Source: a virus
Virus record (IMG/VR): IMGVR_UViG_3300021961_000281
Location: 1 to 36,441 of that record
Length of the DNA: 36,441 nt
Strand: one strand, 5' to 3'
The position numbers and the translations under genes are program-made. This document shows, piece by piece, positions 4,423 to 34,209 of this stretch (positions within the stretch are counted from its first letter, which is position 1; every line of letters starts with the position of its first letter). The notes under the pieces were generated by a model. That model was not told the DNA's origin and searched no databases. It saw only the letters and a list, made by a program, of their open reading frames with translations.

Positions 4423-4506
4423 TGGGCAGAGGGGGACTCGAACCCCCACGGGATTACTCCCAGCGCATTTTAAGTGCGATTCGGCTACCGATTACGACAT
4501 CCGCCC
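4423..4506 (-). tRNA. tRNA-Leu(UAA)
   Basis: An 84-nt class II tRNA. The acceptor stem is GGGCGGA with TCTGCCC (one G-U pair) and discriminator A. The D stem is TCG/CGA. The anticodon loop CTTAAAA gives anticodon UAA. The variable arm is GGGA-GTAA-TCCC. The T arm is GGGGG-TTCGAGT-CCCCC. The outermost anticodon-stem pair is a U-C mismatch. CCA is not encoded, so the host or phage must add it. It reads UUA, a codon favoured by AT-rich phage genes. It is the last tRNA of the three-tRNA cluster. Confidence 0.93.
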
Positions 4507-31200: not shown

Positions 31201-31851
31201 ATGTCTTACTTTAGAGAACTTCCAGACTTACAATATCAATCCACATCTTCCGATAGAAATTCTTCTCTTGAATATGTAACTGTAAAGAATCTATTCAGAA
31301 GAGTTAAACTTCGTGATGATCTTCAAAATGTATTCACTCTCTTCAATAAGTATCAGATCAAAGATGGTGCTAGACCAGATACAGTTGCAGAAGAAATTTA
31401 TGGTGCTCCAGATTATGATTGGGTTGTGCTTTTATCGGCAAACATAATCAATGTTAGAGATCAATGGCCACTTTCTGACAGAGACTTATATCGTTTTGCA
31501 GAGGAAAAATACACCGTTCAAAAACTAAACGATGTAAAATTCTATGAAACCAGAGAAGTTAAAGATTCTTTTGGAAGAGTAATTCTCCCAGCAGGTAAAG
31601 TTGTAGATGCTAACTTTAGAATACCAGATCCAAGTAATCCTCTAACAACTTTAAATCCTGTAACTGGGGTTTCTAACTATGAATATGAAGTTAGGAAAAA
31701 CGAAGATAAAAGAGGAATCTACCTATTAAAACCAGGATATCTTCAGCAGTATGTAAATGACTTTAAGGATATTATGTATTATCAAAAGTCTTCTCAATAT
31801 GTCAATAACAGACTTATAAAAACAGAGAATACAAGAAATACTTCACCATAA
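31201..31851 (+). CDS. 53: gp53 baseplate wedge protein, 216 aa
   Basis: The sequence MSYFRELPDLQYQSTSSDRN, then VTVKNLFRRVKLRDDLQNVF, DTVAEEIYGAPDYDWVVLLS and NIINVRDQWPLSDRDLYRF follows T4 gp53 (196 aa), including the strong 'YG.PDYDWV.LL.N.I....QWPLS' block. gp53 holds adjacent gp6/gp7/gp25 wedges together around the hub, and the central block resembles a LysM-like fold. The C-terminal part (ENTRNTSP) is not conserved. It is the last gene of the plus-strand operon and ends head-on against the Mom-like gene, overlapping it by 9 bases with no terminator between. Confidence 0.94.
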   Translation: MSYFRELPDLQYQSTSSDRNSSLEYVTVKNLFRRVKLRDDLQNVFTLFNKYQIKDGARPDTVAEEIYGAPDYDWVVLLSANIINVRDQWPLSDRDLYRFAEEKYTVQKLNDVKFYETREVKDSFGRVILPAGKVVDANFRIPDPSNPLTTLNPVTGVSNYEYEVRKNEDKRGIYLLKPGYLQQYVNDFKDIMYYQKSSQYVNNRLIKTENTRNTSP

Positions 31852-32430
31852 GAGTTCTAGACTCTTATCAAATACCATAACATAACGGTGCTTGCGGGAG
31901 CGTTCTTTCCATTCTCCCTCGGCACCTTTTATTTTACCTCTTGAATGCTTGGTGCCGTCAGCATAGTAGAAATCTTTTTTTGCGTCTGTAAGCCCACAAT
32001 AGCGAAAGTTACAAGCACGATAAATTGTGCCGCCGTGAAAGTCGCTATCAGCATAACTAATGATCGCCCGAACTTTTGTTTCTCTGCGTAGTTGTCTGAT
32101 ACATCTCGATACAAACCATGATGTAATATTGTATTCTCCTTGTTGTGTGTCAGGGTGTATGCAAAGTCGTGAAAGTTCAAACAGTCCTTCTTGTTCATCT
32201 CTCTTTAAACCAAATGCTCCTTGTGCGACTTCGGGAACAGGGAGACCTGTAAAAATTACTGTCCCAAGTAACTGTCCGATGTTTAATGGACAAAAATCGT
32301 TCTTTTTGAAGAGACCAAAATTGTGTCCCGATTTGAAAGTTTTAGAATAATCTTTAAGATAATGATAAGTTAGTAGAAGTTCTTCTGCCTGCTTTTTGGA
32401 AATCTTATCAATGTAATAATCAGATTTCAT
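31843..32430 (-). CDS. Mom-like GNAT-family protein, candidate DNA base-modification enzyme, 195 aa
   Basis: The protein fits the Mom / phage GNAT family. Features are QLLGTVIFTGLPVPEVAQGAF-type substrate-loop residues 53-73, the diagnostic FELSRLCIHP (84-93), a central helix FVSRCIRQLRRE, and SYADSDFHGGTIYRACNFRY (125-144), which is the 'YAD...H.G.IY.A.NF.Y.G' acyl-CoA-fold segment. Mu Mom converts adenine in DNA to N6-carbamoylmethyladenine and protects against restriction; this protein is slightly shorter than Mu Mom (about 240 aa). It has its own consensus sigma-70 promoter (32461-32489), so it would be made early, before phage DNA accumulates. No restriction or Com-like gene is nearby. 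Family membership is likely; DNA modification is inferred, and another acyl transfer cannot be excluded. Confidence 0.78.
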   Translation of the reverse strand: MKSDYYIDKISKKQAEELLLTYHYLKDYSKTFKSGHNFGLFKKNDFCPLNIGQLLGTVIFTGLPVPEVAQGAFGLKRDEQEGLFELSRLCIHPDTQQGEYNITSWFVSRCIRQLRRETKVRAIISYADSDFHGGTIYRACNFRYCGLTDAKKDFYYADGTKHSRGKIKGAEGEWKERSRKHRYVMVFDKSLELLW

Positions 32431-32489: not shown

Positions 32490-33179
32490 TTTTTTGCCTT
32501 TATTCCACGGAACTCTTCCTTTAGTTGCTTCACTTATTTTTTTTCTAGTTTCTTCACTATGTTTTTGTTTTGGTTTCCCTCTTGCTTTTAAACCTTTTTC
32601 TATATCAGACTGTTTTCTTTTTTCAGTCATAGTTTTTGGAGTTCCTCTATTTGCTTCGGCAATTTTTCTTTTATGTTCATCAGTTAATTTTCTCCCCTTT
32701 GTCGCTTTACTTATTTTTTCCCTTGCTTCTTCAGACATTTTTCTTCCCATACAAGAAAGACTTAATTTTTTCCTTTGCTCTAAACTCATTTTTTTACCCT
32801 TATTATGGGGAGGTTTATTTTTTCTAGCATCATTCATTTTTCTTATAATTTCAGGGTCTCTTGGAACACCTTTATTCCAAGGAACAGTTCCCCTTCTACT
32901 AAATCCAACAGAAGTTTGATATGCCCTATTAGCAAAGTGTGGGTTCTCTACTACCTTATAATATTCTTGTAAGATAATCTCATCAACATATGCTTCTTCT
33001 CTTGTAGCATATGTTTTTAAGATTATTTTTTGTGTTGGTTTGAAGTTCTTATCACTAAAAGAACCAAAATACTTTACATCTTCTTCTGGTAAGCATCTAC
33101 AAGTTCTACTACCAAAATATCCTCTACCATATTCCTCATAGGAATAATAGACATAGTGATACTCTTTTGGAGTTTCCAT
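32475..33179 (-). CDS. GIY-YIG homing endonuclease with NUMOD3 repeats, 234 aa
   Basis: Residues 9-75 form a GIY-YIG nuclease: YVYYSYEEYGRGYFGSR (9-25) corresponds to the GIY...YIG strands with the catalytic Arg25, and EEAYVDEIILQEYY (61-74) carries the candidate metal-binding Glu. Residues about 95-234 consist of NUMOD3-type DNA-binding repeats: WNKGVPRDPEIIRKMNDARK, MSEEAREKISKATKGRKL, TDEHKRKIAEANRG, HSEETRKKISEATKGR and a final PWNKGKKL. The frame extends to GTG 33242, but that stretch is the gp32 terminator hairpin, so the ATG at 33179 is the start. It is free-standing, not inside an intron, and sits next to gene 32 as SegG does in T4. A TATAAATA late promoter lies 26 bases upstream. The nuclease class is clear; the target site is unknown. 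Confidence 0.9.
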   Translation of the reverse strand: METPKEYHYVYYSYEEYGRGYFGSRTCRCLPEEDVKYFGSFSDKNFKPTQKIILKTYATREEAYVDEIILQEYYKVVENPHFANRAYQTSVGFSRRGTVPWNKGVPRDPEIIRKMNDARKNKPPHNKGKKMSLEQRKKLSLSCMGRKMSEEAREKISKATKGRKLTDEHKRKIAEANRGTPKTMTEKRKQSDIEKGLKARGKPKQKHSEETRKKISEATKGRVPWNKGKKLTKD

Positions 33180-33205
33180 AACTGCTCTTCTAATGTCCGC
33201 ATTAA

Positions 33206-33213
33206 TATTTATA
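33206..33213 (-). promoter_or_regulatory. T4-type late promoter, exact TATAAATA, for the homing endonuclease
   Basis: Exact TATAAATA on the minus strand. Initiation near 33200 gives a leader of about 21 nt to the ATG at 33179. Confidence 0.75.
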
Positions 33214-33240
33214 ATAAAAAGGAGGAGATTTCTCTCCTCC
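33214..33240 (-). terminator. Rho-independent terminator of gene 32
   Basis: On the minus strand GGAGGAGA-GAAA-TCTCCTCC forms an 8-bp stem with a GNRA-type tetraloop, followed at once by TTTTTATT. It lies about 36 bases after the gp32 stop. Confidence 0.92.
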
Positions 33241-33276
33241 ACCCTTAAAGTTTGCGGACATTTAAGGCGATACTAT

Positions 33277-34209
33277 TTATTCCTCCGCCAAACGAGCGAA
33301 ATATGATAATGTAGAATCATCGTCCTCGTCTTCATCAGAGGAGGAAACGGTGCGAGTGGGTTTCAGAGAAGACAGTTCATCACGGAGATCTTCGGTGAGT
33401 TCACGGGAAGAACCACGGGTGTACTCTTCCTCTTCACCCTCTTCGGGATCTTGATAGCGAGGAGTGCCTTTGGTGCCAAGCACATAGTCAAGGCGCTTTT
33501 TCAGTTCATCGTAGGTCTTGAATTGGTCAGCAGCAACCAGTTCTGCAAGAGAATATTCTTTCTTCCAGATTGCTTCCATTGCGTCATCATCGTCCAGAAG
33601 TGCTTCCTGGCGAGCAAACTCAGAAGAGTCATAGTTACGATAACCAGCAACGTTCTTTGCCTTCAGTTTGAAGTTAGCACCCTGCCAGAAGTCAAACGGA
33701 TCGATTGCTTCCTCATCCTCAAACTCAGGTTGCATAGCAGCAGTGAGTTTGTCAAAGATTTTCTTACCGAATTTATACAGGAAGACTTTACCTTCGTTAG
33801 CAGGATTGGCAGGATCCTTGACAACATAGATGTTGGCAACATAAGTCAGTTTGCGCTTCTGCTTACGTGCCTGCTCTTTGCCAGCATCGGTGCCGTTGTT
33901 CCAGAGCATCGTGTTGTGCTCAGACACAGGATCTTTCTGACCCAGAGTAGTCAGAGAGTTCTCAATATACCAACCACCAGGACCTTGGAAGGCGTGACTG
34001 TAGAGTTTCACGAACGGCAGGTCCTCACCGTTCGGAGCAGGCAGGAAACGGATAACGGCATAACCATTGCCGCTCTTATCACACTCCAGTTTCCAGAGAC
34101 GGTCATCGCCAGAGGATGAACCGTTAGTATTCATTTTTTCGACTTCCTTGACCAGTTTTGCGGTCAGGTTGCCAAGTTTCGATTGCTTTTTAAGGTCTGC
34201 GAAAGACAT
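33277..34209 (-). CDS. 32: gp32 single-stranded DNA-binding protein, 310 aa
   Basis: The N-terminal basic segment (MSFADLKKQSKLGNLTAKLV) fits the gp32 cooperativity domain. The OB-fold core contains YAVIRFLPAPNGEDLPFVKL, YSHAFQGPGGWYIEN, KRKLTYVANIYVVKDP and NEGKVFLYKFGKKIFDKL, closely like T4 gp32 (301 aa). The C-terminal tail is acidic (SSSDEDEDDDSTLSYFARLA) and recruits gp59, polymerase and UvsY in T4. The His/Cys zinc ligands of T4 gp32 are absent: only one cysteine is present (LECDK). The gene has its own sigma-70 promoter, a direct repeat in the leader and a strong terminator, so it forms a separate high-expression unit. T4 gp32 represses its own translation by binding its leader, which may apply here. 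Confidence 0.96.
   Translation of the reverse strand: MSFADLKKQSKLGNLTAKLVKEVEKMNTNGSSSGDDRLWKLECDKSGNGYAVIRFLPAPNGEDLPFVKLYSHAFQGPGGWYIENSLTTLGQKDPVSEHNTMLWNNGTDAGKEQARKQKRKLTYVANIYVVKDPANPANEGKVFLYKFGKKIFDKLTAAMQPEFEDEEAIDPFDFWQGANFKLKAKNVAGYRNYDSSEFARQEALLDDDDAMEAIWKKEYSLAELVAADQFKTYDELKKRLDYVLGTKGTPRYQDPEEGEEEEYTRGSSRELTEDLRDELSSLKPTRTVSSSDEDEDDDSTLSYFARLAEE

Follow-up and report, generated by a model that had tools for sequence, protein, structure and literature searches.

The survival of homing endonucleases is usually ascribed to promoters borrowed from the host phage or to simple hairpins in their leaders. In I-TevI, I-TevII and I-TevIII of T4, in segB and in mobE of Aeh1, a hairpin occupies the start region on read-through RNA, and an internal late promoter gives an unfolded mRNA (PMC2988022). 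These genes are not described as having a distinct late promoter further upstream, a 5' hairpin that displays a seed or a terminator in between, nor as sharing a portable, many-seed module with unrelated nucleases. In seg43(25) of Aeromonas phage 25, a stable hairpin lies just upstream of the RBS and not over it (PMC2988022). Another relevant class are the type I toxin-antitoxin loci, such as tisB/IstR-1, zor/orz, symE/SymR and ralR/RalA, in which an adjacent antitoxin RNA pairs with the toxin mRNA and blocks synthesis; for tisB, zor and symE this pairing falls in the 5' region of the toxin mRNA, and RalR is a DNase (PMC4147584). Their RNA genes are divergent or overlapping antisense genes that use host promoters. 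In the cyanophage S-PM2, the antisense RNA CfrI is likewise linked to a homing endonuclease gene; it is ~225 nt long, comes from the opposite strand and spans psbA and F-CphI (PMC2984593, PMC12197685).

The leader described here lies in a 36,441 b stretch of a virus record (the window) and combines features of these systems. As in I-TevI, segB and mobE, it precedes a homing endonuclease gene, its read-through RNA forms a structure in the start region, as seen by folding and covariation, and a late promoter with a predicted start would give an RNA that is free of the 5' arm and unfolded. As in seg43(25), the stem of the cis fold abuts the RBS without covering it; unlike that single hairpin, the window module includes a predicted small-RNA unit. 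As in type I loci, complementarity to the 5' region of the mRNA is maintained through covariation. A promoter-like element (P1), a 5' hairpin (H1) and a terminator, all conserved, together delimit a predicted RNA (RNA1) and would make up a small RNA gene beside its target. In contrast to those loci, this putative RNA gene is placed in tandem on the same strand, phage late-type promoters take the place of host ones, and the target gene encodes a mobile nuclease. RNA1 also differs from CfrI in length, strand and extent. The module thus appears to be more than an I-TevI-type hairpin, with P1, H1 and the predicted RNA1 added. Modules from five sources had no match in Rfam at the gathering threshold, and a literature search, chiefly of freely readable papers, found no description of such a module.

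The endonuclease gene and its leader

On the minus strand of the window, a gp32-like gene is followed by an ORF of 234 aa and then by a gene for a Mom-like protein (31843-32430), which has the endonuclease on one side and convergent baseplate-type genes on the other. A tRNA gene is recognized by Rfam at 4423-4506, also on the minus strand. The ORF matches NUMOD3 repeats (1.8e-22) and a homing endonuclease PHROG (1.2e-22), in agreement with a preliminary description that had attributed the leader to a free-standing endonuclease. As to the GIY-YIG label given there, the invariant motif Y-V-Y-Y-S-Y..G-Y-x-G-x-R is present, but Pfam GIY-YIG returned zero matches, and a fold search of the PDB gave nothing significant (I-TevI domain, TM 0.52 by target, E 9.2). 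Profile comparison with PF01541-positive relatives yields a match mainly in the NUMOD part, outside the catalytic motif. Going by motif and weak fold similarity, the protein may be a GIY-YIG enzyme.

The elements of the leader are collected in Table 1. A terminator, perfect 10-bp arms and TATAAATA had been reported, and all three are there, on the minus strand. The arms, AATGTCCGCA and TGCGGACATT, are complementary at 10/10 positions and lie 51 nt apart; the terminator has a stem of 8 bp (33240-33221, minus strand) with a loop of 4 nt, followed by a U-tract; and TATAAATA occurs once in the window versus 3.7 times in shuffles. Folding of the leader on the minus strand is 3.6 sd better than that of its shuffles, which agrees with the earlier prediction that read-through RNA would fold beside the RBS. 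It had further been argued that RNA from P2 starts within arm 2 and escapes the hairpin. The predicted start is indeed in arm 2 and this RNA forms no hairpin alone, yet it is the predicted target of RNA1 in trans. Similarly, the cis elements of the proposed I-TevI-type switch are present, but a second late-type promoter and a 5' hairpin displaying arm 1 had been missed. This promoter, P1, lies exactly 5 nt upstream of H1, with the predicted RNA1 start at a G (33268).

Table 1. Features of the endonuclease leader and its flanking genes in the window
Feature	Coordinates	Strand	Basis or remark
gp32-like ssDNA-binding protein	33277..34209	-	upstream neighbour of the leader
P1, late-type promoter AATAAATA	33274..33281	-	overlaps gp32 stop codon 33279-33277
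RNA1, predicted antisense small RNA, ~55 nt	33214..33268	-	P1, H1 and terminator
H1, RNA1 5' hairpin with seed in loop (GCCUUAAAUGUCCGCAAACUUUAAGG)	33243..33268	-	folding, covariation
Arm 1, the seed, AAUGUCCGCA	33253..33262	-	complementarity to arm 2, covariation
Intrinsic terminator, predicted RNA1 3' end	33214..33240	-	stem and U-tract
P2, late promoter TATAAATA	33206..33213	-	sequence; predicted mRNA start G at 33200
Arm 2	33192..33201	-	its last 9 nt would be nt 1-9 of the endonuclease mRNA
Presumed ribosome binding region AGAAGAG	33185..33191	-	purine-rich; partly under the extended RNA1-mRNA duplex
Free-standing homing endonuclease ORF, 234 aa	32475..33179	-	GIY-YIG-like N-terminus and NUMOD3 repeats

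The two tandem T4-type late promoters are spaced ~60 bp apart, and the mRNA leader measures ~20 nt. Counted from the predicted starts, nt 1-16 of RNA1 form the antisense of nt 1-18 in the P2-started mRNA; on each RNA the complementary stretch starts with the very first nucleotide past the spacing of its promoter, P1 or P2. As a single 10-bp repeat in 36 kb proves little, the observation was settled by its conservation in relatives.

A layout conserved in relatives

Relatives of the window ORF, gathered from viral contigs by a protein-based search in which the layout played no part in selection, are found after gp32 and also after other genes. They share one layout from 5' to 3': [A/C]TAAATA, N5, a purine starting H1, the terminator, TATAAATA, N5, a leader of ~20 nt and ATG. 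P1 stands at the fixed N5 spacing to the purine in 51 of 51 distinct leaders with enough sequence; in the 52nd protein-selected leader, the contig end cuts off the upstream part. In S-SRM01, TAAATA is found 271 times in 480 kb, or about every 1,800 nt of strand, so its presence in all 51 is not due to chance. P2 is equally constant, reading TATAAATA in 129 of 131 distinct modules and CATAAATA in the other two, and where relatives have complete arms, TATAAATA mostly lies 4 nt upstream of arm 2, the P2 start being predicted.

The late motif published for S-PM2, which is also found upstream of Syn9 late genes, is NATAAATA (PMC2984593). Upstream of long ORFs in S-SRM01, ATAAATA is enriched 19x and CTAAATA 10.6x, and GTAAATA and TTAAATA are each enriched under 2x. 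The variable base of P1 follows the same preference in the 131 modules (A in 83, C in 48, G and T in 0). Judged by its sequence, P1 has the late-promoter signature of these phages.

A terminator stem with a U-rich tract is found in most relatives, although 28 of 137 distinct leaders have short U-runs (<=3). H1 folds in all 137, with compensatory pairs, and its signal is moderate, 56 of the 137 falling within the lowest 5% of shuffles. RNAalifold found no structure on a plain MAFFT alignment because the columns are out of register. The joint conservation of P1, H1 and the terminator defines a discrete predicted small-RNA gene.

Covariation between the predicted RNA1 and the endonuclease mRNA

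The pairing of the arms, whose loss in relatives had been named as a test of the earlier reading, is retained: TATAAATA is present in each of the first 35 relatives examined, and their arms are complementary despite changed sequence, with a G-U pair in some arm types. In the wider set, nt 1-7 of the mRNA are paired in all 137 distinct leaders despite about 70 different arm sequences. At mRNA nt 3, for instance, the pair is C-G in 63 leaders, G-C in 46, U-A in 24 and A-U in 4. In 132 of the 137, nucleotides 3-4 of RNA1 have partners both inside H1 and in the mRNA, which is what a hairpin opened by binding to its target should show. An energy threshold was used to gather the 137 leaders but played no part for the 51 selected by protein, so the unbiased tests carry more weight.

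Across 22 arm types, the duplex has an energy of -21.0 (sd 1.3) kcal/mol for cognate and -8.6 (sd 4.0) for non-cognate partners, an advantage that none of 100,000 permutations approaches; 4 of 35 RNAs pair better with a foreign arm type than with their own. Net of the cost of opening both RNAs, the values are -14.0 (sd 2.2) for cognate and -2.5 (sd 2.7) for non-cognate partners, and -14.3 for the window. A pattern scan of viral contigs for P1-RCCTG-P2 that ignored complementarity returned 88 distinct sites, of which 74 pair at -15 or below, one at -13.2 and 13 above -10; the site at -13.2 also precedes a GIY-YIG-type gene. In bacterial genomes, where the same pattern marks chance sites only, 1 of 117 pairs at -15 or below. 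Control pairings gave 0/522 when offset, 0/115 when reversed and 38/2540 when shuffled.

Proposed mechanism and alternatives

On balance, it is likely that the endonuclease mRNA is silenced in trans by a tandem small RNA resembling a type I antitoxin, and that read-through RNA is silenced in cis. The leader would then be a self-contained control unit carried along by mobile nucleases. P1 would drive RNA1, ~55 nt of a seed-presenting 5' hairpin followed by an intrinsic terminator. P2 would drive the endonuclease mRNA; in its ~20-nt leader, the first ~18 nt can pair with nt 1-16 of RNA1. A duplex of the two would open the RNA1 hairpin and sequester the mRNA from nucleotide 1 as far as the presumed ribosome binding region. 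Translation would thus most likely be blocked in trans, with RNA1 acting as an antitoxin-like brake on the nuclease. An RNA that reads past the terminator would carry both strands and silence itself in cis, maybe as a second layer. From the promoter signature, the conserved unit and the covarying complement, we infer that RNA1 is transcribed and acts in trans, its effect most likely being repression. If both promoters are late, RNA1 and mRNA would be made together, which counts against the brake model.

Pairing in cis and in trans involves the same nucleotides, and covariation alone cannot tell the two apart. The main rival is therefore a switch acting in cis only, of the I-TevI, segB and mobE type, in which the fold of arm 1 on arm 2 hides the start region, the P2 RNA is free, and P1 and H1 are incidental. 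Such switches have documented precedents (PMC2988022), the arms do pair in read-through RNA, and they always lie near each other in cis. That would leave unexplained why P1 stands at a fixed spacing in 51 of 51 leaders and why pairing begins at the P1 start; moreover, H1 competes with the cis hairpin and yet covaries, and the terminator would remove most read-through. With P1 and H1 unaccounted for, we do not accept this switch as the full account and regard it as unlikely.

Small RNAs can also activate or stabilise their targets; in Streptococcus, FasX acts in this way on ska mRNA. A genuine RNA1 bound to the very 5' end of the mRNA might do the same, and pairing does begin at the mRNA 5' end in all leaders; but the duplex spans 16-18 of ~20 leader nucleotides and runs into the presumed ribosome binding region, which makes activation decidedly improbable. 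Finally, a DNA element read by the endonuclease as an operator, cruciform or homing site is barely credible: I-TevI autorepression through an operator over its late promoter is a precedent (PMC2988022) and P2 adjoins arm 2, but closely related nucleases have different arms, unrelated ones share them (23 of 67 seeds occur in more than one family), and what is kept is complementarity, not sequence.

Silencing by RNA1 in trans invites an extension that is offered tentatively and is somewhat doubtful: the seed-coded brake may be portable, so that cassettes with the same seed cross-silence one another's nucleases or those of co-infecting phages, while different seeds act independently. Seeds would then form groups that can be likened to the incompatibility groups of plasmid antisense copy control. 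If the brake exists, it would explain how mobile nucleases are tolerated downstream of essential genes such as gp32. Unrelated nucleases, a TnpB among them, have one compact module in common that seemingly brings along two promoters, a small RNA and the target of that RNA, and its many natural seed-target pairs are candidate orthogonal RNA regulators. Cultured phages that carry modules make the idea testable.

Distribution among nucleases and phages

The module precedes genes of 13 N-terminal families, five of them large. The nucleases behind it comprise several GIY-YIG (PF01541) families, HNH_3, HNH, NUMOD4 and an endonuclease VII family, as well as a weak PD-(D/E)XK match and one TnpB (OrfB_IS605). 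The TnpB/OrfB_IS605 gene lies behind a class I module on contig L265 (3848-5151), and the mRNA start of that module, GCGAACCA, is also used by GIY-YIG-type and HNH genes. Each large family has 6-29 seeds, and the seeds common to several families indicate that leader and nuclease reassort.

Among cultured isolates, six modules, each with a different seed, occur in S-SRM01 (MW015081), and a single one, with AATAAATA as P2, in B23 (MN695335). Selection for differing seeds within a genome was not seen, same-seed pairs numbering 1 observed versus 1.4 expected. A strict filter found no solitary RNA1 gene with a distant target in S-SRM01, and it also missed two of the six known modules. By pattern, inspected matches contained no class I module in S-PM2, S-SKS1, Sf-CH5, S-B43, S-N03, ACG-2014f, RN05-S, DSL-LC03 or P-SSM2.

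The S-SRM01 record annotates the nucleases but neither promoters nor RNAs in the stretches examined, and places some nuclease start codons within the control module. GIY-YIG-type/NUMOD genes are annotated as 'translation initiation factor 2' in the S-SRM01, B23 and Sf-CH5 records (L286 14716-15474, L321 1195-1818, L327 592-1014). The gp32 terminator of S-SRM01 (L001 4110-4190) has the same stem-loop, GGAGGAGAGAAATCTCCTCC, as the window terminator; the window cassette may thus have captured a gp32 terminator, or the reverse.

A second leader type, with a conserved hairpin TGGGCAGCA...TGCGTAAGTCCCA, precedes GIY-YIG-type and other genes at L288 ~540-700 (S-SRM01, 77.56 kb), at L327 ~490-600 (Sf-CH5) and at ~50 further viral contig sites. 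It is devoid of a constant P1 or a U-tract and has no credible match in Rfam. The hairpin loop can pair with the initial ~15 nt of the late mRNA that follows the next NTAAATA; this holds in 51 of 51 cases, at -16 to -30 kcal/mol. A near-identical leader, ACGCAAGTAAGTCGCGGAACGGAGCGTWAGCAATTAGA, stands before a homing endonuclease in both Sf-CH5 and S-B43 (L164 and L165, ~1900-1946), and is possibly a third conserved leader or an intron end.
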